A stretch of DNA of 64,000 nt from the NCBI RefSeq assembly GCF_038404985.1, contig NZ_JBBKBA010000002.1, forward strand, positions 124,001 through 188,000, in the 5' to 3' direction. Origin of the DNA: Ferrovibrio sp. MS7. Lineage in GTDB: Bacteria > Pseudomonadota > Alphaproteobacteria > Ferrovibrionales > Ferrovibrionaceae. The position numbers and the translations under genes are program-made. The notes below the pieces were generated by a model. That model was not told where the DNA came from and did no database searches. It saw only the letters and a program-made list of their open reading frames with translations. Positions 8,956-64,000 of the stretch are shown here, one piece after another; position 1 is the first letter of the stretch; each line of letters begins with the position of its first letter.

Positions 8956-10857
8956 TCAGGTTTTGAAGAAGCGCACCAAGGCCGCGAGTTCCTGTGCCTG
9001 GGTGGTGAGCGACTGCGCCGCCGCCGTGGTTTCCTCGACCAGTGCCGCGTTCCGCTGGGTCATCTCGTCCATGCTGCCAACAGCGGTGTTGATCTGGTCC
9101 AGACCCGTCGCCTGCTCGCGGCTCGCGGCGGCGATCTCGGCGACAATATCCGACACCTTCTTGATCGCCGCGACGATATCGACCAGCGACTGACCGGCAC
9201 GGTTGACCAGGGTGGCGCCGGTCTTCACCTGGGCATTGGATTCGGAGATCAGCGCCTTGATGTCCTTCGAAGCGCTGGCGGAACGCTGCGCCAGCGCCCG
9301 CACTTCCTGCGCCACCACCGCAAATCCTTTACCGGCCTCGCCAGCCCGCGCCGCCTCGACGGAGGCATTGAGTGCCAGCAGGTTGGTCTGGAAAGCGATT
9401 TCGTCGATCAGTGCCACGATGTCGGAAATCTTCCGTGCGCTGGCCTCGATCTGGGTCACTGCCGCCACGGCATCGCCCACCACCTTGCCGCCGGTTTCGG
9501 CGGTGTCGCGCGCCGTGCTCGCCAACTGGTTGGCGGCCTGGGCATTGTCGGCATTCTGCTTCACCGTGGTGGTGATTTCATGCATCGACGCCGCCGTCTC
9601 CTCGATACTGGCGGCCTGACTTTCGGTGCGCTGCGCCAGATCCTGGCTGCCGGTGGAGATTTCCGCTGCTGCGCCATGTACCGCCTCGGTTGTCTGCAAC
9701 AGCCGACCGGCGAATTCGCGTAAGCGCGCCGCCATACCGTTGGCGCTGTTTTTCAACGTCGCGAACACCCCCTGGTATTCCCCATCGACCTGTCGCGTCA
9801 GGTCGCCATTGGCCATGGTCTCCATCACGCTGGCGAGCCCGCCGGTGACGGTGCCGAGCGTGCCCGAGAGGCGGTTGAGTTCCTGGCTCAAGGTGAGCAG
9901 GAAACCTTCCTTGTCGGTTTCATTGAGCCGCGTTGACAAGTCGCCGGCGGTGATGCGGCGGCAAAGCTCGGCAACTTCCGCCGCCGCCTGACGTTCGCGT
10001 GCTTCGCGCGCCTCACGCTGCGCCTCGGCCTCCTGGCGTCGCGCCGCGATCTCGGCTTCGGCGCGCTGCTTCTCCACGGCATTTTCCTTGAACACCGCCA
10101 GCGCCGCACCAATGCGACCGACCTCGTCAGTCTGCTGCAACACCGGCACCTGGGCATCGAGCCGACCATCGGCGAGGTGCTGCATCGCGGTGATCATGCG
10201 TTGCAACGGGCGGGTGACACCAATCAAGACAATACCCAGTGCAAGCATCAAGCCTGCAGCACAGCCGACAATGGCAACCACGATCAACTCGGTGCGCGTC
10301 ATCCTGGCTTCCGCCAGGGCCGCCTTCTGCACCTCCTCCTGCTGCTTGTTGTAGCGGTCTTCGATGTTGCGCAGGCTCTGACGCGCGGCATTGAACTGCG
10401 CCGATGCCGCGATGATGCCGGCTTCGGCAGTGGCGAAATCGCCCTTGTCGCTGGCTTCGCGCGCGGCACGGTAGAGCGGGATATACCGGTCCACTGCCGC
10501 CTGCATGTCGGCGAAATCCTTGCGGTCGGCATCGGTGTCGATCAGCGGCTTCAGCCGATCCATGCGGCTCTGGTAGCGGCGCAGTTCATCGTCGGCGGTC
10601 TTGATCACGGTATCGCGCAGGGCCGGGTCCAGCCGGCGGGTCATCGCTTCCGCCATGCGCACGAACTGCACCAGGTTCACCGTGCCGCGCCCGGCATGTT
10701 CCAGCCGAGTGGAAGCATCATCGATGCGGATCAGCGCCTGCTCCATCTTGCCAAGCGCGCTGACCCCGCCATAGGCCATCAGGCCGGCGGTGAAGATGAG
10801 GATACCGACAACGCCAAGCAGCTTGCTGAGCAGACCAAGATTCCGGAACCAGGCCAT
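8956..10857 (-). CDS. Methyl-accepting chemotaxis protein
   Basis: About 633 residues from the ATG at 10857 (GGGAGGTG 6 nt upstream). A transmembrane helix near residues 10-32 is followed by a mostly helical periplasmic domain of about 150 residues, a second helix ([20 protein letters not shown]), a HAMP domain, a long coiled coil and the signalling tip ([20 protein letters not shown]). The tip sequence binds CheA and CheW. No C-terminal receptor-tethering pentapeptide is seen; the protein ends LVRFFKT. The helical ligand domain gives no clue to the attractant. It stands alone, not in a che operon. Confidence 0.92.
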
Positions 10858-17488: not shown

Positions 17489-18991
17489 CTAGTCGAGATT
17501 AAGCCGCGCGGCGGCCTGGGCAGCTAGGTCGCCGCTTTTTTGTCCGGCATCGAGATGCAGCCAGTCGGCGGGCGGCTCGATCGCTTCGGCCTGGAAACGC
17601 ACCACGTCCGGGGTCGCATCCGAGGCATCGCCGCGTCGTGCCGCCACGCGCTGGCAGAGCAGATCGGTGCCGCCTTCCAGCCACAGGCCGCGGAACACGG
17701 CATTGCAGTGCAAGGCCAGCTTGGCCGCTGCATCGCGTTCGCCCGGCTTGCCGAATACCGCGTCCAGGATCACCGGCACACCGGCTGCAAGCAATTGATG
17801 GGCATGTTCCAGCAAGGCGGCATAAACCCGCATGCTGGCCTGCGGCGTGTAGCTTTCCGGCGGCAGGCGCGTACCGGCCGCAACACCTGCCAGCCGCTTG
17901 CGCAGCACATCGGAGCGTAGCACCACGGCGCCGCAGACCGCGTCGAAGCGCGGCGCCAGCGCGCGGGCCAGCGTGGTCTTGCCGGTGCCGGAGCGGCCGC
18001 CGATGGCAAGCAGCAGCGGTGTGGCCGGGCGCAACACGCGCCGCGCCAGCGCCAGGTAGCGCCGCGCTTCCGGCCATTGCTGCGGCTGCAGCCCGGCGAC
18101 ATGGGCGCGGATCGCGGCACGCAGCGAAATATAAAGTGGCAGCAGTGGCAGCGCGCCATCATCGCCGCTCTGCTCCAGGTAGCGGTTCAGCGCCCGGTTG
18201 GCGAGATCGGCGCGGTTATGCGCCAGCAGATCCATCAGCAGGAAAGCGATGTCGTACGCCGTATCGGTGCGCGCCAGCGCGGCATCGAATTCCAGGCAAT
18301 CGAACAGCAAAGGCTTGCCACCCAGCAGGCAGATGTTGCGCAGATGCAGGTCACCATGGCCGTGGCGGATACGGCCCTCGGCGCCCCGGCGCGATAACGG
18401 CACGGCCAGTTGTGCCAGCGCCTCCTCGGTTTCCTGGCGCAGGTCGGCAAGGAATATCTCCGGCAGCACTTCCGGATCGAGCCGCGCAAAGCTCTCCGTG
18501 TTCATTGCCGCCACGCGCCGCGCCGCCTCCAAGGCATCGCCATCCAGCGGCGCCAGGCCAGCATGGAAACCGGCAACCGCTTCTGCCGTCGCCTCGATCA
18601 GTGCCGGAGTCAGGCGGCCCATGCCAAGCTGGCGGTCGAGCGTCGCGTCATCCGGGAAACGCCGCATCTCCACCAGCCATTCGACCGCATGGGCCGGTTC
18701 GGCATCACGCGGCGCGAGCTGCAGCCGGCCTGCCGCATCCCGGATCACGGCGCGCAGCCCGAGATAGAGATCCGGCGCGGTGCGACGATTCAGCGCCAGT
18801 TCCTGGCACGCGGCGTCGTGGCGCTGTCGCAGCGTAGAGAAATCGACATAAGGCAGATGCACCGCCCGTTTCAGCTTGAACACGCGGTCGCCGCAGAGAA
18901 AGAGCCGGGAGATATGGGTCTCGACGACACGCTCCAAGGCTGGATCGGTGAACAGCAGGTCGAGATCGGACGGGTTCGGCTGGATGCGCAT
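17489..18991 (-). CDS. APH-like kinase fused to P-loop (zeta/AAA) kinase domain
   Basis: A 500-residue two-domain protein. Residues about 1-300 look like an aminoglycoside-phosphotransferase-type kinase, with HGDLHLRNICLL (212-223) and FDCLEFDAALARTDTAYDIA supplying the catalytic and metal-binding aspartates. Residues about 325-500 are a P-loop kinase with Walker A GGRSGTGKT (331-339), similar to the gluconate-kinase/zeta-toxin group. The fusion is found in many proteobacteria, with no established substrate known to me. An antibiotic-resistance role should not be inferred from the APH fold. Single gene, convergent with gcvPB. Confidence 0.82.
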   Translation of the reverse strand: MRIQPNPSDLDLLFTDPALERVVETHISRLFLCGDRVFKLKRAVHLPYVDFSTLRQRHDAACQELALNRRTAPDLYLGLRAVIRDAAGRLQLAPRDAEPAHAVEWLVEMRRFPDDATLDRQLGMGRLTPALIEATAEAVAGFHAGLAPLDGDALEAARRVAAMNTESFARLDPEVLPEIFLADLRQETEEALAQLAVPLSRRGAEGRIRHGHGDLHLRNICLLGGKPLLFDCLEFDAALARTDTAYDIAFLLMDLLAHNRADLANRALNRYLEQSGDDGALPLLPLYISLRAAIRAHVAGLQPQQWPEARRYLALARRVLRPATPLLLAIGGRSGTGKTTLARALAPRFDAVCGAVVLRSDVLRKRLAGVAAGTRLPPESYTPQASMRVYAALLEHAHQLLAAGVPVILDAVFGKPGERDAAAKLALHCNAVFRGLWLEGGTDLLCQRVAARRGDASDATPDVVRFQAEAIEPPADWLHLDAGQKSGDLAAQAAARLNLD

Positions 18992-19017
18992 GCGGCCATC
19001 CTACGCCCCGAAAATGA

Positions 19018-19058
19018 CCCCGCCTTGACCCAGAGCAAAAGCCGGGGCCAAGGCGGGG
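19018..19058 (-). terminator. Possible terminator after the DUF1328 gene
   Basis: A perfect 10-bp stem (CCCCGCCTTG with CAAGGCGGGG) around a 21-nt loop, lying 13 nt past the DUF1328 stop; on the minus strand it is followed by TCATTTT. The loop is long for an intrinsic terminator, so confidence is moderate. Confidence 0.45.
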
Positions 19059-19070
19059 CGGGTTATGGGG

Positions 19071-19250
19071 TTACGAGAGAGGCGGTCGGCGGCCGCTCAG
19101 CAGGCTCATCACCAAGGTAATGAAAAAGATTACCAGGAAGATGAAGAACAGGATCTGGGCGATGCTGGAAGCAGCGGCGGCGATGCCGCCGAAGCCGAAC
19201 AGGGCGGCCACCATGGCCAGAACGAAGAATACAACGGCCCAATACAGCAT
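19071..19250 (-). CDS. DUF1328 small membrane protein
   Basis: A 59-residue, very hydrophobic protein: [20 protein letters not shown] then [20 protein letters not shown], giving two transmembrane helices. It matches the DUF1328/YtjA family of small inner-membrane proteins. I chose the ATG at 19250, with AAGGAG 7 nt upstream, over a longer frame with 30 unrelated residues. Family members are often stress-induced; no function is established. It sits just below the parS pair. Confidence 0.88.
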
Positions 19251-19359
19251 GATCTTTCTCCTTGTTTCAGGAAACGACCAGGCCATCGGAACGGGGTAAT
19301 GGGGCAAGGGTGCGGGCAAAACAGGGCATTTCCGCCGCAAAGGTTAACTCAGGCGGCCG

Positions 19360-19375
19360 TGTTTCACGTGAAACA
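19360..19375. other. parS centromere site 1
   Basis: The 16-bp palindrome TGTTTCACGTGAAACA is an exact match to the bacterial parS consensus bound by ParB. ParB loads here and spreads, recruiting SMC and guiding origin segregation. It lies between the DUF1328 gene and ubiG. parS sites usually cluster within a few per cent of the chromosome around oriC. Confidence 0.88.
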
Positions 19376-19389
19376 CCCAGGGAACAATC

Positions 19390-19413
19390 ATCCTGTTTCA
19401 CGTGAAACAGGAT
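19390..19413. other. parS centromere site 2 in a 24-bp perfect palindrome
   Basis: A second exact TGTTTCACGTGAAACA (19394-19409) is extended by ATCC and GGAT into a 24-bp perfect palindrome. Its centre is 34 bp from that of site 1. It also lies 13 nt past the ubiG stop, but has no T-run, so parS explains it better than a terminator. Confidence 0.88.
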
Positions 19414-19426
19414 GGGAACACTATTT

Positions 19427-20185
19427 TTAGCGTTTCACCGCCACCATGAGGTAGTTCACATCGGTATCGCGGCTTATTGTCCAGCGTTCCGACAGAGGCG
19501 CATAGCTGGCGCCGGCGACCTGGGTGACGCTGAGCGAGGCATCGCGCAGCAGCTTGGCCAGCTCATGAGGTTTTAGGAATTTTTTCCAATCATGGGTGCC
19601 GGCAGGCAGCCAGCGCAGGATATATTCGGCGCCGACGATGGCGAGCGCATAGGCCTTGGGGGTGCGGTTCAGCGTCGCCGCGACCAATATCCCGCCCGGA
19701 TACCCGGCAGATGGGGGCTTCAGCATCTGGCCGAGTGCACGGCAGAAACCCGCCGGATCGGCGACATGTTCCACGACTTCCAAGGCCATGATGACATCGA
19801 AGCGCTCGCCCGCCGCCACCAGTTCCTCGGCTGCCGTGCAGCGGTAATCGATTTCCAGGCCGGATTCGGCGGCATGATGCCGGGCAACGCCGATATTCTT
19901 TTCCGAGGCATCAACGCCGATCACGCTGGCACCCAGCCGGGCCATGGGTTCCGAGACCAGGCCGCCGCCGCAGCCGATATCCAGCAGCCGCAGGCCGGCA
20001 AGCGGTGAGTCGCTGAGGGGATCGCGGCCGAAATGCCCGGCCACCGCATCGCGCACGAAGCCAAGCCGCACCGGATTGAACTTGTGCAGCGGGCGGAAAC
20101 TTCCCACTGGATTCCACCACTCGGCAGAAAGCGCGGAAAACCGCTCTATTTCGGCTGGATCGACACTGGCGGCCTGGACACTCAT
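19427..20185 (-). CDS. ubiG: Ubiquinone biosynthesis O-methyltransferase UbiG
   Basis: A 252-residue class I methyltransferase with the UbiG signature: FSALSAEWWNPVGSFRPLHK at the N terminus, SAM motif LLDIGCGGGLVSEPMARLGA, and LEVVEHVADPAGF. It performs the two O-methylations of ubiquinone synthesis on the cytoplasmic side of the membrane. The start at 20185 (MSVQAAS) gives the family length; the longer frame adds a basic, unrelated leader. It is divergent from lysC. Confidence 0.95.
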   Translation of the reverse strand: MSVQAASVDPAEIERFSALSAEWWNPVGSFRPLHKFNPVRLGFVRDAVAGHFGRDPLSDSPLAGLRLLDIGCGGGLVSEPMARLGASVIGVDASEKNIGVARHHAAESGLEIDYRCTAAEELVAAGERFDVIMALEVVEHVADPAGFCRALGQMLKPPSAGYPGGILVAATLNRTPKAYALAIVGAEYILRWLPAGTHDWKKFLKPHELAKLLRDASLSVTQVAGASYAPLSERWTISRDTDVNYLMVAVKR

Positions 20186-57873: not shown

Positions 57874-60800
57874 TTAGAATTGTTGCGGTCTGCCCGGCCC
57901 GTCCAGGGTCAACTCGATCAGGCCGAAGAAAAAGCTCTCTTTCTTGTAGATGCCCGCTTTCCTCAATAAATGCGGCATGAAGCCCATCGCGACGGCATCG
58001 TCATAACTGACGTCCGCAGTCGCCAATGCGCTGTACATCGAGTTGTAACTTGGGAAAAGCTGCGACATTTCACTGACGTTAAGCTTCAGCGGCAGCAAGA
58101 ACTTCATCAGGTTGTTCTCCGGCCCCTTATCTGGCCGCATGATTCGGCCGAGATCGGCAGAGAATTCACTGATCTGCTTCAATGTGATGCCCGAATCCAG
58201 GACTTGCTGGACGGAATAGCCGGCAGCAAGCACATCACCAACGGTGAAACCAGCCTTCAGCATCGCAGCCGGCGGGAAGCCGGCCTTGCGGATATCCTGC
58301 ACCGGCCTCACCGCCAAGGCGGCATCGGCCTCCGGCACGCCGAGATTCATCAATGCCGCCTTGTCGAGGCCCGCCGCCGCCAGCTTCGGCGCCGAGACGC
58401 CTTGCTGCAACAAGTCCTTCGGGGTGAAACCGAGAGCGCTCAACTGCGCCAAAGACACACCGTTCTGGAACAGACTGCCGGCCGTGTGGCCAACCGCCAG
58501 CAATGTCGGCAGGGAAATACCGTCCTTCAGCAACTGCGCCAGACTCGTACGGCTTTTAGGGCCGATGGCACCGACCGGCCAGCCAGCGGACTGCATGCCA
58601 CTGGTTACTTCGGCCTGGGTGTAGCCAGCTTTGAGCATACTGGTAACGACCTCATCATAGCGGGCCGCACTCTCGTAGGTACGCCGAAGGTTTAGGTATA
58701 GATAATCGTAGGCGGGCACATTGGCCGCTTTGAGATCCGGTAGCGGATAGCCAGCGCCGACGATGTCTTGAATGTGATACCCCGCGTCGCGCAGTAATGT
58801 CGCGGGAGCACCATTCGCCCGCATTTCGTCAGCGGGATAGCCAGCCTTCGCCACGACCGAAATATCAGCGCCCGCCTTGATCAGGTCGCTGGCGGAATAA
58901 CCAGCCTGCGTGCGCAATTCGCTGAGTGGAAAGCCTGCTGCCAGCAGGTCGCTCAGACTGTAACCCGCATTCCGCAGATCAGCCGAATTGTAGCCTGCAT
59001 TGCGCAGGTCGGAAGATGAGTAATCCAGCCCTTTGAGGGTCTTGGCATCAACACCGGCTGCCCGCTGCTCTTTCGGGGTATAGCCGTTGGCCTTCAACAT
59101 GGCGCTGTCGAATCCGGCCGCCAGCACTTCCTTGGCTGAATAGCCAGCGCCTCTCAATTCAGCCGCAGGATAGCTACCTTTAAGGAAGTCGGACACGCCA
59201 TAGCCGGCCTTGCGGATATCTCCAGCAGGATAGCCACCGAGCCGCAGGTCGCTCAGGCTATATCCGCCCGCCGCCATCTCGGACACAGTCAGGCCGATTG
59301 CGCGCTGATCCTGCACGGGTATGCCATTGGCCTTGAAGTCCTTCGGGCCATAGCCAGCGCCGCGGGTTTCCGCCAGGGGATAGCCCGCCTGCAGCAACTC
59401 CTTCAGATCGGCGCCCGCTCCCCTCACTTCGGCAGCGGAATAACCGACGCCGCGCAAATCGCTGTAGCTGGCACCAACCGTCACCAGGTCTCTCGCTGGA
59501 TAGCCACCGCTGCGCAAATCACCGAATGAATAACCGAGCGGCGCCACTTCCGTGATCGGGAAGCGCGCCTTGCGGAAATCGCTTGCCTCGAAGCCCTGAT
59601 CTTTCAGCGATTGCGGCGTTAGGCCTGCCGCCTTCAACTCGTCGGCATATTTCACCCCAGGGCCGATGGCATAGCGGTTTGTCCTCAGGATATCGGCGAC
59701 GCTGGTAAGCCCCAGATCCAGCATTTCTGCAACAGGGAAAGCAAACTGAAGCAACTGCTTCTGCTCTTGTGTGATTGTTTCCGGCGTAACACCACGCAGG
59801 AACAGGATTGCATTGGCCCCCGGCAGCATCCACAGGTCATCGAAGCTGTAGCCGCTGCGCCACAATGTACCTACGGAATAACCGGCTTGGATGATCTGGT
59901 TGCGGTCGTAGCCAAAACTCGCCAGGTCAGCAACGGAGTAGCCGGCATTGCGTAATTCGCTAGCTGGCGCCCCCATTTTACGCAGATCTTCAGGGCTGAA
60001 TCCGGCAGCCAGCAACGCTGCTGTATTGCGCCCGGCCTGCTGCAAATCCCCATAGCTGAAATTCAATGCCTTCAAGGTTGAAAGGTCATATCCGGCATCG
60101 AGCAAGTCACGTGCGCTATAGCCAGCCTGTTTCAAATCGGCCGGGCCATAGCCCGCCGATGCCAGTTGGCCGATGCTATATCCCTGGCGGCGCAAATCCG
60201 TGGCGGAATAGCCGGCGCCGCGCAAATCCTGCAGCGGGAAACCCGCCTTTACCAGATCACCGAGAGGATAGCCGGCGCTGCGAAGCTGAACGATATCAAG
60301 ACCGGCGGTGCGCAATTCGCTCGCAGGGTAGCCCGAGCGCCGCAGTTCGGTGGCGGTGAATTGCGATTCCAGAAGCTCTGCCAGTGGGAAGCCGGCGGCT
60401 TTGAGCTCGGCGAGCGGAACGCCAACGGATTTCAGTTGCGATGCTGTGTAGCCAATATTGCGCAACTCCGGGGTACCAAAACCGATTTGCCGTAACGTCT
60501 GCAGCGGCGTGCCGGTATCGCGCAATTCGGTCACATCATAGCCGGCCTGCTTCAAACTGGCCGGATCGAAGCCCTCGCTTTTCAGATCAGCAGCGGAAAA
60601 GCCGGAGCGTTTCAGTTCAGAGGGGGGGTAGCCCAGGGCGAGGAGTTCGCGCGCCTTGAAGCCAATATCATGCAGAGCGGTCGCATTGTAACCGGCCTGT
60701 TGGAAATAGCGGCCAGGCAAACCAGCAAAATGCAACTCGCTGTCGGTCAGGTCGAGCGATTGTCTTAGGTCTGCGAGCGAGTAGCCGGCATCAAGCAATT

Positions 60801-63800
60801 GCGCGGAGGAATAGCCCTGTTGAGCCAACTCTGCCGGCTCGTAGCCAGCCTGGCGCAAATCGGCGAGCGGATAGCCAGCGGCCAGCAAGTCTGCCAGGGG
60901 ATAGCCATTCGCCTTCAGGGTGGTGAGCGGGATGCCATCTGCCTTCAGGTCAGACAGCGAATAACCGGCAGCATTCAGGTCTTTGATATTATACCCGGCA
61001 GCCAGCATGTCATTGATGCTGTATCCGGCTTCCCTGATAAAGACCGGGGAATACCGCCCTTCCCTGATTTCGGCCAGGGGAATGCCGGCGGCGCGCAAAT
61101 CCTCGACGGTATAGCCGGCGGAACGCAGATTGCTGATCGTGTAGCCAAACTCAAGCGCGATGAGCGGCGACTGACCAAGCGCCAGCAAGTCGGAGAGCCT
61201 GGGGCGGCCATCATCCGGCAGCGACAGCGAAGCCACCTGCACAGCGTTGCCAACATCCCGGCTGATCGAGGCGCTATCGGTAGAAGCCTGAGTACGCCGC
61301 GCTTGGTCGGCTACGGAATCGCTCGAGCTTGACCCACCGCCGCCGCCGCCCAGATTGCCGACATCCGTGCCGGCAATGGTATAGGTGAAGCCGTTACCAC
61401 TGGCCGGGACATTCGAGCAATTGGTGGTCGGGAAATTCGAGCAGCTATAGCGCTCAAAGCCGGTCAATGCGCCGCGCGTATCATTCGCCGGATTGACGGA
61501 ACGGATCAGCCAGCGCCCGTTGGTCGCATCGACCGTGCCGCCGTTATTGATGAAGCTGGCGCCAGCAAGCGTGATCGCGGTGCCCGTGGCGGTGCTGCTG
61601 ATGGCGGCGCCATTATCCAGTGTGATGGCGCCGCTGCTCATGATCCGCACTGGCGTAGTGAAAGCCGACAGCGTGCCGCCAATGGTGACTGGGCCATTGG
61701 ACATGCCGCCAATATTCAGCAAGGTGGAGGTCTGGAACCGACTCAGCACCGCATCGCTGATGCTCAGCAATCCGGCGCCGGTGCCAATGCCGATGCTGCC
61801 GGGGAAGGTGGACGGATAAATCGTCGCCTGCGTGCTTGCCGTCGCCGTCGTGGTGCTGCTGACAGCGAGGCTGTTGGCGCTGATATTGACGTTTGCGGCC
61901 TTCAGCGTCACGGCTCTTGTCGAGTCGAGCTGAACATCGCTGGCGGTCAAATTGACATAGTTGGTGGTTGGGCTGCTGCTGACGCCATCCCAACCCAGCG
62001 CGACTGTGGCGCTGCCATTCGGCGTCGAGAACCCGATCTTGCCACCCGTGGCGGTCAGGCCGATGCCGCCACTGCCAGAATAGATCGCGGTCTGCTGGGT
62101 GCCGCCATCGAAGGAAATGCCATAGGCCGGATTGGTGCTGGTGGTGGCCTGCGTGCCCGAGATGGTAATGGCCTGCGTGGTGGTGGAAATCTCCACGCCA
62201 CTGCCGATATTGATGCCGGAGCTGAAGCCATTTGGGCCACCGGTGCTATCGCCGCCGATACCGGTAAGCTGGATCTGGCCGCTGCCGCTGGTGGAAATCT
62301 GCGAGCCGCTGGCGATATCGATGCCGATGGACGTGGCAACGCCATCCGCGCCCTTGCCGCGCAGGTTCAACGAACCGCCACCGGCATTAATGATGCTGCC
62401 ATTGATGAACAGGCCGCGACCGCCATTGCTGCCGGCAACACCTTGCGCGGTGCTGGAGGTGCCACCGCCGGTCATGATCACGCCGCCGCCTCGGGTGATG
62501 ATCGAGGAGTTGCTGCCGATATAAATGCCGCCGCTATTGCCGGCCTGGAATTGCACCGTCAGGGGGTTGCTGCCCGAGGTGGCGGCAATGGACGTATTGT
62601 CGGCTAATGATACGCCACCATCGGCCCGCACGGTGAAGACGGTGTTGCCGGCTGTCACTGTCGGGGTGATGCTGGAATTTATGGACACATTACCGGTGCC
62701 GGAAACGCAGGAGGCATAGGCGCTGGGACAGCCGCTGGTGTTCAGCGTGACATTGGTGGTGGCCAGCGCCGTGCTAAGCGCGGCGGCGCCAGTCGAGCCA
62801 ATCGTCAGATCATTCGGGTCCAGCAGCCATTCGCCGGCCTGGCCCCTGGCTGCGCTGGCATCGACTGCCGCGCCGGCACCAATATCCAGCAGGATGCCGG
62901 AGGTTTCGATAAAGCCGCCATCGCCTCCCTGGCTGCCACCGCGAGCCAGCGCCCGGCCGCTGAAGCGGGTATCCTGGCTGAACAGGGTAATGCTGCCGCC
63001 ATCACCATTCTGCCCTGCCGAGGCCGAGAGCAGGGTGCCGGCATTGACCGTGGTGGCGGATGTAGCCCAACTGCCGATTTCGATCTTGCCACCAGCACCC
63101 TGGCTGCCATCGGCGGTGATGCTGGCATCGGTCAGTGTGATCGGGCCGTTGGCGCTGGCTGTCACCGTGCCGCCACTGGTACCGCTGGCGGAGACAATGC
63201 CGCTGACATTCAGCGAGCCGCTGGCCTCCAGCACGATCTCGCCGCCACGTTCCACCAGACTGTCGGCGCGGATGACACCGGAGGTATTGATGGCGCTGCT
63301 GGTCAATGCATCCAGCGCCTTGGCGGTGAGGATCACGCGACCGCCTTCCGCCACCACCATGGCGCGGTTGTCGATCAGCGTCTGGATCGTCGCCGGCTCC
63401 ACCTGCAGCAAGACATTCTGGCCGATCTGCATGACCACGGTCTCGCCGGCGGCGAGCGCCACCGTGCCGAGGCGAGCCGAAATCAGGCCCTCGTTACGCA
63501 GTTCCGGTGCCAGCAGGGCGATATAGCCGCGTTCACTGGCGGTCAGGCTGCCCTGGTTGATGATCTGCCCGGTGCTGCCATTACGCTGGAAGCGGTAATT
63601 GCCGGCCATGAAGTCGTCATCGCGGATGCTCATGGTCGACCCGACCAGACCACCGACATTGATCTGGGCATCGCGCCCGAACACGATACCGGATGGGTTG
63701 ACCAGGAATACCTGGCCATTGGCGGTCAGCTTGCCGAGAATCTCCGAAACATTGCCGCCGGTAACGCGGTTGAGCGTCACGGCATTGCTGTTCGGCTGGT

Positions 63801-64000
63801 TGAAGTTCACCCAGGCCTGGCTGCCGATATTGAAGCTCTGCCAGTTGATGATGCCGCGCTGGCTGCTCTGCGTCACATCCATGCGGCTGCCGGATTGAGT
63901 GATTGTGGCGGCACCGGCGGCCACGCTGCCGCCAGTCGGCAGTGTGGTCGGCTGCGTCTGGGCCTGCACCGTAGCTGAAGCCAGTAATGCCGTGGTGGCG
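57874..64000 (-). CDS. Giant two-partner-secretion exoprotein with ten-residue repeats (5' end outside window)
   Basis: At least 2041 residues. The GTG at 63969 is not the true start: the frame stays open to the window edge and encodes ATTALLASATVQAQTQP, the end of a signal peptide cut at VQA|Q. Numbering from that GTG: residues 1-250 are a TPS secretion domain (INWQSFNIGSQAWVNFNQPN, VFLVNPSGIVFGRDAQINVG); about 250-900 is a Ser/Thr/Gly-rich beta-helix of the filamentous haemagglutinin type with two cysteine pairs; 941-1381, 1448-1748 and 1816-1935 are decapeptide repeats; 1936-2031 is a unique C terminus with no toxin or anchor motif I recognise. A TpsB transporter should lie beyond 64000. 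It is probably a secreted surface adhesin or structural protein; the repeat region's role is unknown. Confidence 0.85.
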   Translation of the reverse strand, partial: ATTALLASATVQAQTQPTTLPTGGSVAAGAATITQSGSRMDVTQSSQRGIINWQSFNIGSQAWVNFNQPNSNAVTLNRVTGGNVSEILGKLTANGQVFLVNPSGIVFGRDAQINVGGLVGSTMSIRDDDFMAGNYRFQRNGSTGQIINQGSLTASERGYIALLAPELRNEGLISARLGTVALAAGETVVMQIGQNVLLQVEPATIQTLIDNRAMVVAEGGRVILTAKALDALTSSAINTSGVIRADSLVERGGEIVLEASGSLNVSGIVSASGTSGGTVTASANGPITLTDASITADGSQGAGGKIEIGSWATSATTVNAGTLLSASAGQNGDGGSITLFSQDTRFSGRALARGGSQGGDGGFIETSGILLDIGAGAAVDASAARGQAGEWLLDPNDLTIGSTGAAALSTALATTNVTLNTSGCPSAYASCVSGTGNVSINSSITPTVTAGNTVFTVRADGGVSLADNTSIAATSGSNPLTVQFQAGNSGGIYIGSNSSIITRGGGVIMTGGGTSSTAQGVAGSNGGRGLFINGSIINAGGGSLNLRGKGADGVATSIGIDIASGSQISTSGSGQIQLTGIGGDSTGGPNGFSSGINIGSGVEISTTTQAITISGTQATTSTNPAYGISFDGGTQQTAIYSGSGGIGLTATGGKIGFSTPNGSATVALGWDGVSSSPTTNYVNLTASDVQLDSTRAVTLKAANVNISANSLAVSSTTTATASTQATIYPSTFPGSIGIGTGAGLLSISDAVLSRFQTSTLLNIGGMSNGPVTIGGTLSAFTTPVRIMSSGAITLDNGAAISSTATGTAITLAGASFINNGGTVDATNGRWLIRSVNPANDTRGALTGFERYSCSNFPTTNCSNVPASGNGFTYTIAGTDVGNLGGGGGGSSSSDSVADQARRTQASTDSASISRDVGNAVQVASLSLPDDGRPRLSDLLALGQSPLIALEFGYTISNLRSAGYTVEDLRAAGIPLAEIREGRYSPVFIREAGYSINDMLAAGYNIKDLNAAGYSLSDLKADGIPLTTLKANGYPLADLLAAGYPLADLRQAGYEPAELAQQGYSSAQLLDAGYSLADLRQSLDLTDSELHFAGLPGRYFQQAGYNATALHDIGFKARELLALGYPPSELKRSGFSAADLKSEGFDPASLKQAGYDVTELRDTGTPLQTLRQIGFGTPELRNIGYTASQLKSVGVPLAELKAAGFPLAELLESQFTATELRRSGYPASELRTAGLDIVQLRSAGYPLGDLVKAGFPLQDLRGAGYSATDLRRQGYSIGQLASAGYGPADLKQAGYSARDLLDAGYDLSTLKALNFSYGDLQQAGRNTAALLAAGFSPEDLRKMGAPASELRNAGYSVADLASFGYDRNQIIQAGYSVGTLWRSGYSFDDLWMLPGANAILFLRGVTPETITQEQKQLLQFAFPVAEMLDLGLTSVADILRTNRYAIGPGVKYADELKAAGLTPQSLKDQGFEASDFRKARFPITEVAPLGYSFGDLRSGGYPARDLVTVGASYSDLRGVGYSAAEVRGAGADLKELLQAGYPLAETRGAGYGPKDFKANGIPVQDQRAIGLTVSEMAAGGYSLSDLRLGGYPAGDIRKAGYGVSDFLKGSYPAAELRGAGYSAKEVLAAGFDSAMLKANGYTPKEQRAAGVDAKTLKGLDYSSSDLRNAGYNSADLRNAGYSLSDLLAAGFPLSELRTQAGYSASDLIKAGADISVVAKAGYPADEMRANGAPATLLRDAGYHIQDIVGAGYPLPDLKAANVPAYDYLYLNLRRTYESAARYDEVVTSMLKAGYTQAEVTSGMQSAGWPVGAIGPKSRTSLAQLLKDGISLPTLLAVGHTAGSLFQNGVSLAQLSALGFTPKDLLQQGVSAPKLAAAGLDKAALMNLGVPEADAALAVRPVQDIRKAGFPPAAMLKAGFTVGDVLAAGYSVQQVLDSGITLKQISEFSADLGRIMRPDKGPENNLMKFLLPLKLNVSEMSQLFPSYNSMYSALATADVSYDDAVAMGFMPHLLRKAGIYKKESFFFGLIELTLDGPGRPQQF
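58165..58524 (-). repeat. Decapeptide repeat block 3 (12 units)
   Basis: 120 residues, exactly 12 units of ten, the most diverged block: for example NGVSLAQLSA, LGFTPKDLLQ, AGFTVGDVLA, AGYSVQQVLD. Gly at position 2 and a hydrophobic residue at position 8 are kept, while the aromatic at position 3 is often I, V or L. Confidence 0.85.
58726..59628 (-). repeat. Decapeptide repeat block 2 (30 units)
   Basis: 301 residues: 30 units of ten with one single-residue insertion (AGFPLSELRTQ). Typical units are AGYPLAETRG, GGYSLSDLRL, AGYNSADLRN, AGYSLSDLLA. It is separated from block 1 by a 66-residue linker and from block 3 by a 67-residue linker, each containing a few decayed units. Confidence 0.92.
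59827..61149 (-). repeat. Decapeptide repeat block 1 (44 units)
   Basis: 441 residues: 44 units of ten with one single-residue insertion. Hand count gives Gly at position 2 in about 40 of 44, Tyr or Phe at position 3 in about 35, and Leu at position 8 in about 38 (the rest Ile, Met or Phe). Position 4 is mostly S or P, position 7 mostly D or E, position 9 often R or K. DNA copies are well diverged, so the period is kept by selection rather than recent duplication. Confidence 0.95.

Follow-up and report, generated by a model that had tools for sequence, protein, structure and literature searches.

ParB-parS complexes are the places where ParA pulls and SMC loads, and the prevailing view is for this reason that parS stays within the origin region. 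The Noc-binding sites (NBS) of Firmicutes have a core sequence that differs from parS, are read by a ParB paralogue, and avoid the terminus. In the centromere of plasmid P1, the A-box palindromes and the B-boxes are read by different domains of ParB. The great majority of known parS sites lie in the ori domain, which spans about 20% of the chromosome around oriC; this is a usual, not a strict, feature (PMC7022226). Caulobacter tolerates a second parS cluster within approximately 500 kb around the native one, whereas positions in the middle of the arm are disfavored (PMC5815017), and ParB nucleation at distal positions should therefore be costly.

Here we report the analysis of a tandem pair of parS palindromes in a Ferrovibrio genome, its position relative to the parAB locus, and the occurrence of related sites in the genus and in other Alphaproteobacteria. 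Our literature search found no papers describing a box flanking parS, or parS in Ferrovibrio.

The tandem parS element and its neighbors

The window, a stretch of 64,000 nucleotides (G000:C2:124001-188000), belongs to the 4.58-Mb genome of a Ferrovibrio sp. (Alphaproteobacteria), which comprises five contigs and is designated here G000; its sequence was read as samples of the genome. A preliminary description of the window had noted two perfect parS copies, 34 bp apart, between ubiG and a DUF1328 gene. Both 16-mers are indeed exact at these positions and their start-to-start distance is 34 bp, while the palindrome enclosing the second copy, which had been given as 24 bp, measures 26 bp. Each copy is followed after six nucleotides by a GAACA box that had escaped mention, so that what is repeated directly is in fact a 27-bp unit. 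The features are as follows, in window coordinates.

19071..19250, minus strand: DUF1328 small-protein gene (PF07043, E 1.2e-12), start codon facing the element
19360..19420, plus strand: entire element, parS-N6-GAACA present twice as a 27-nt direct repeat with a period of 34 bp
19360..19375, plus strand: parS palindrome copy 1, TGTTTCACGTGAAACA, exact match
19382..19386, plus strand: accessory box 1, GAACA, 6 bp from copy 1
19389..19414, no strand: 26-bp perfect palindrome with copy 2 inside
19394..19409, plus strand: parS palindrome copy 2, TGTTTCACGTGAAACA, exact match
19416..19420, plus strand: accessory box 2, GAACA, 6 bp from copy 2
19427..20185, minus strand: UbiG-like methyltransferase gene (Methyltransf_11/23), 3' end just past the second box

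The pair occupies the intergenic slot that separates the 3' end of ubiG from the 5' end of the DUF1328 gene, both encoded on the minus strand. Its chance origin is ruled out by shuffle statistics: shuffled windows contained 0.47 matches to TGTTTCACGTGAAACA per window even at three mismatches, and five matches were reached in none of 100. Neither an intrinsic terminator of ubiG (a GC-rich hairpin followed by a T run) at the site nor a promoter at the element was found. The UbiG-like protein has one strong best match per genome in 18 genomes of the family; its named relatives are Ferrovibrio species, with a 100% match in the metagenome-assembled genome Gw_Bodden_bin_214. Elsewhere in the window, a 500-aa protein with an AAA_33/zeta-toxin-like kinase domain (17489-18991) adjoins the DUF1328 gene, and a 2031-aa open reading frame lies on the minus strand at 57874-63969.

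The assignment of the palindromes to the parS type stands. Together with the 16-bp palindrome TGTTTCACGTGAAACA, the genome encodes a canonical chromosomal ParB with ParB_N, HTH_ParB, and ParB_C domains, closest to the Caulobacter ParB structures 6t1f/7bm8. It is the only full-length TIGR00180 match in G000, the other match having a 93-aa frame, and this search revealed no second full-length ParB/Noc-type protein. With a canonical ParB as the single full-length family member, the simplest assumption is that this protein binds the cores.

Position of the element on the chromosome

In the preliminary description, the pair was interpreted as a centromere cluster away from parAB that marks the window as likely origin-proximal. 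The absence of parAB and gidA from its vicinity was correctly noted, as the canonical gidA-parAB cluster and dnaA are both located on contig C1. The parB gene is at G000:C1:706211, on another contig than the window, beside a gene that we take to be gidA from gene order, and four exact and one single-mismatch parS sites flank this gene or lie inside it. The dnaA gene (G000:C1:2122728-2124185) is found approximately 1.4 Mb from parAB.

In a relative with a closed genome (G013), both GC skew and the orientation of KOPS-like octamers switch near parB, at 1.34 Mb, and again near 3.43 Mb, and a dif-like 17-mer is identical in G013 (3425155) and G000 (C3:81700). The KOPS-like polarity is 0:12 in the window, with no flip, and 0:18 in all samples of contig C2. 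The best contig order, which is inferred, joins the ends of C1 through C3 and C2 and gives arms of 2.15 and 2.13 Mb; under this order contig C4 (293 kb) would be a separate replicon. The pair then lies 1.60 Mb from parAB, 75% of the way along the arm, with approximately 0.53 Mb remaining to dif, and the minimum distance to parAB that is independent of the order is 704 + 143 kb. The pair is thus located outside the ori domain.

An origin-proximal centromere cluster would agree with the perfect parS pair at its core. However, the parAB-associated parS sites belong to a different contig and are separated from the pair by at least 0.85 Mb whichever way the contigs are ordered, and in the best order the pair is nearer to dif. 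Copies of the 16-mer are scattered over three contigs, and GC skew, KOPS-like polarity, and the dif-like site put the window towards the terminus; these are the two kinds of outcome that the preliminary description had named as contrary to its reading. Unless the assembly is wrong, the origin-proximal reading is refuted by the contig map, the KOPS-like polarity, and the position of dif, and we find it scarcely credible.

Distal parS sites in the genus Ferrovibrio

Genome-wide, G000 possesses nine exact and three one-mismatch parS sites, five of them at gidA-parAB and the rest distributed among six ori-distal loci on C1, C2, and C3. Besides the window pair, these are the exact or one-mismatch sites at C1:1891949, C1:2389488, C3:112878 (31 kb from dif), C3:341515, and C2:979475. 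For the genus as a whole we analyzed 22 non-redundant distal loci, using one representative per independent locus. Exact sites number 18 in the G010 genome, 9 in G000, and one in the closed G013, where the single exact site is at parAB and the distal sites are remnants with one or two mismatches; genomes from other genera of the family have at most two parS sites. Because the site sets differ so greatly between species, and G013 is almost devoid of exact sites, the genus does not depend on the distal set. The window pair itself was seen only in its own species.

Almost all of the distal sites fall between genes, the non-coding share of DNA being 10.7% according to a home-made gene finder. Their arm positions range from 0.36 to 1.0, leaving the origin-proximal third empty (P 3e-4 under a uniform distribution); of the 18 positions, 12 were mapped through synteny with G013, which rearranges.

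An accessory box distinguishes distal from parAB-proximal sites

The pattern TGTTTCACGTGAAACA-N6-GAAC(A/G) was found in 14 of the 22 distal loci, window pair included, as compared to 0 of 23 parAB-proximal sites; no 4-mer at any of the offsets scanned is more common than GAAC at +6 (Fisher P 1.9e-6, distal versus proximal), and about a third of the distal loci have no box at exactly this offset. As it carries the GAAC box, the window site falls in another sequence class than the parAB-proximal sites. The C3:112878 site in G000 has a box on both sides of the palindrome, and a tandem period of 33-34 bp is common to the window pair and the arrays of G010. The AACA of the box repeats the AACA of the adjacent half-site at a distance of exactly 11 bp, one helical turn, and GGAACA is similar to the outer portion of GTGGAACA, the half-parS bound by Pseudomonas ParB (PMC7022226).

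A possible but unlikely explanation is that the boxed palindrome represents an operator of another DNA-binding protein, such as a Noc-like protein, a terminus-organizing factor, or a local regulator, which shares the parS core, with ParB binding incidental. The lack of the box at every parAB-proximal site would fit such an operator, as would the frequent location of sites near gene starts (aroQ, rpmG, and the BASS transporter) and of one site approximately 66 bp from the dif core. However, the core keeps the parS consensus at 15 or more of its 16 positions in 14/14 boxed distal representatives (all 16 in 11 of them), and the genome has yielded no second full-length protein of the ParB/Noc type. 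In addition, the neighboring genes are unrelated and the sites turn over between species, hence no clear regulon emerges. The LexA (SOS) box of Alphaproteobacteria, GTTC-N7-GTTC, was found at 0 of 24 boxed sites, and the EcfG general-stress promoter, GGAAC-N16/17-GTT, at one of 24 with a -10 element at about the right spacing; neither of them fits.

Alternatively, these may be ordinary secondary parS sites that provide weak ParB loading and local transcriptional silencing, the box merely raising the affinity for ParB. In Pseudomonas aeruginosa, parS sites exist outside the core cluster and ParB binds half-parS motifs genome-wide (PMC7022226), and ParB represses promoters near parS (PMC7022226; in part also PMC5521831). 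This explanation leaves unaccounted for both the confinement of the box to distal sites and the absence of further sites from the origin-proximal third of the arms, and we judge it decidedly unlikely.

Conservation of distal sites between species

Five distal loci are common to more than one species. The element upstream of aroQ is kept in four species within otherwise unalignable DNA, with one mismatch in G013. Three other shared sites neighbor a gene encoding 405 aa (64-67% identity), a gene for a BASS-type transporter, and rpmG, the last at 116 bp in both species (names taken from sequence reading, not from a family search), and one further shared locus is inside a hydrolase gene.

In G007 (L156, G007:C22:71000-90900, locus position 10005), a boxed parS sits about 66 bp from a dif-like core, between an SMP-30-like gene and mazG, both named from sequence reading, and in G010 (L150, G010:C25:47713) another one lies between a cas9-like gene and alaS. 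In G009, a repeat of at least 963 bp is present in three identical copies (L165, L167, and L168), each with a boxed parS, which carry phage-like small genes and are located at or near contig ends; this triplicate is one repeat and was counted once.

Relative to G013, the window pair sits at a rearrangement breakpoint: around window positions 17489-19436, the left flank has its syntenic counterpart near 110 kb of G013, and that of the right flank is near 2.337 Mb. Such a breakpoint, as well as the triplicate in G009, could point to inert relics or hitch-hikers, spread as copies by a mobile element or left behind by inversions. We regard this as very improbable, for the cores are intact and are kept between species in diverged intergenic DNA, and the sampled G013 stretches that hold the two flanking blocks contain no parS remnants with two or fewer mismatches. 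Copying by a mobile element was rejected, since the flanks of different distal sites have nothing in common beyond the box and the G009 triplicate amounts to a single repeat.

Boxed sites in other Alphaproteobacteria

As the motif had been found post hoc in G000, it was tested in other genomes. Of 386 alphaproteobacterial genomes, 13 have an exact match to the boxed pattern, in a search that misses many box-less sites; eight copies are in the single-contig genome G216 from another family. As predicted beforehand, parB of G216 lies 1.6 to 6 kb from three box-less palindromes, and all eight boxed sites are at least 0.5 Mb from parB, at 0.35-0.92 of the half-chromosome distance (using a rounded genome length). 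Single boxed copies in G260, G174, and G333 are also found within 5 kb of parB, thus the separation of boxed and proximal sites is not absolute outside Ferrovibrio.

Viruses were considered as a source of the sites; the boxed pattern is present in 70 viral contigs versus 51 and 38 for two control patterns, without clear enrichment. A search for plasmid records similar to the site returned nothing meaningful.

Discussion

These results suggest that the preliminary description recognized a real feature and assigned it to the wrong location, and that the pair belongs to a previously unnoticed class of distal boxed parS sites. We give about an even chance to the reading that, in Ferrovibrio, it represents one of a class of ori-distal sites that are bound by ParB and have a half-site-like accessory box. 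In the proposed mechanism, the palindrome would be bound by the sole chromosomal ParB of the cell, and the box would provide a third, half-site-like contact for a second ParB dimer or for a partner protein. This contact may alter the action of ParB at such sites, via clamp release, sliding, or the recruitment of SMC or ParA, and the distal sites might then serve local or terminus-half chromosome organization without acting as a second centromere. A third contact could also account for the tolerance of distal parS despite the disfavored ectopic parS in Caulobacter. More tentatively, and with less confidence than for Ferrovibrio itself, several alphaproteobacterial families may keep a second class of ParB-family sites, parS-N6-GAAC, off the centromere and reaching the terminus, which would be read by ParB and a partner as a dedicated system for ori-distal organization or terminus marking that makes distal parS tolerable.

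A distal boxed parS conflicts with the rule of origin-proximal parS. If our reading is true, natural, conserved sites of this kind would show how cells use ParB elsewhere on the chromosome, and they make testable the question of what tells ParB that a given parS is not a centromere.

Comparison with the described systems places the Ferrovibrio sites closest to the chromosomal parS of ParABS (16-bp TGTTNCACGTGAAACA, bound by Spo0J/ParB), with which they share the core palindrome, a canonical ParB, and multiple copies per chromosome. In contrast to these, the distal sites occupy the ori-distal two thirds rather than the ori domain, and they have the N6-GAAC box and a 33-34 bp tandem period, whereas no box accompanies the parAB-proximal sites in the same genomes. 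Like NBS, they are ParB-family palindromes dispersed away from the centromere; however, the window pair has a true parS core instead of the NBS core, no full-length ParB paralogue of the Noc type was found in its genome, and the sites extend to dif. The two-box centromere of P1 similarly combines a palindrome with a second short motif at fixed spacing, and a second contact of the same protein is plausible here, but the Ferrovibrio box has a different sequence, the sites are chromosomal and dispersed, and reading of the box by ParB is putative. The matS sites bound by MatP in the terminus macrodomain are likewise dispersed short palindromes in the terminus half of the chromosome, although their sequence is unrelated, and the Ferrovibrio sites are few and extend towards the origin as far as about 36% of the arm. 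Finally, by its likeness to the half-parS of Pseudomonas (PMC7022226), the GGAACA sequence could be a ParB contact, which in Ferrovibrio is held at a fixed spacing from a full palindrome.
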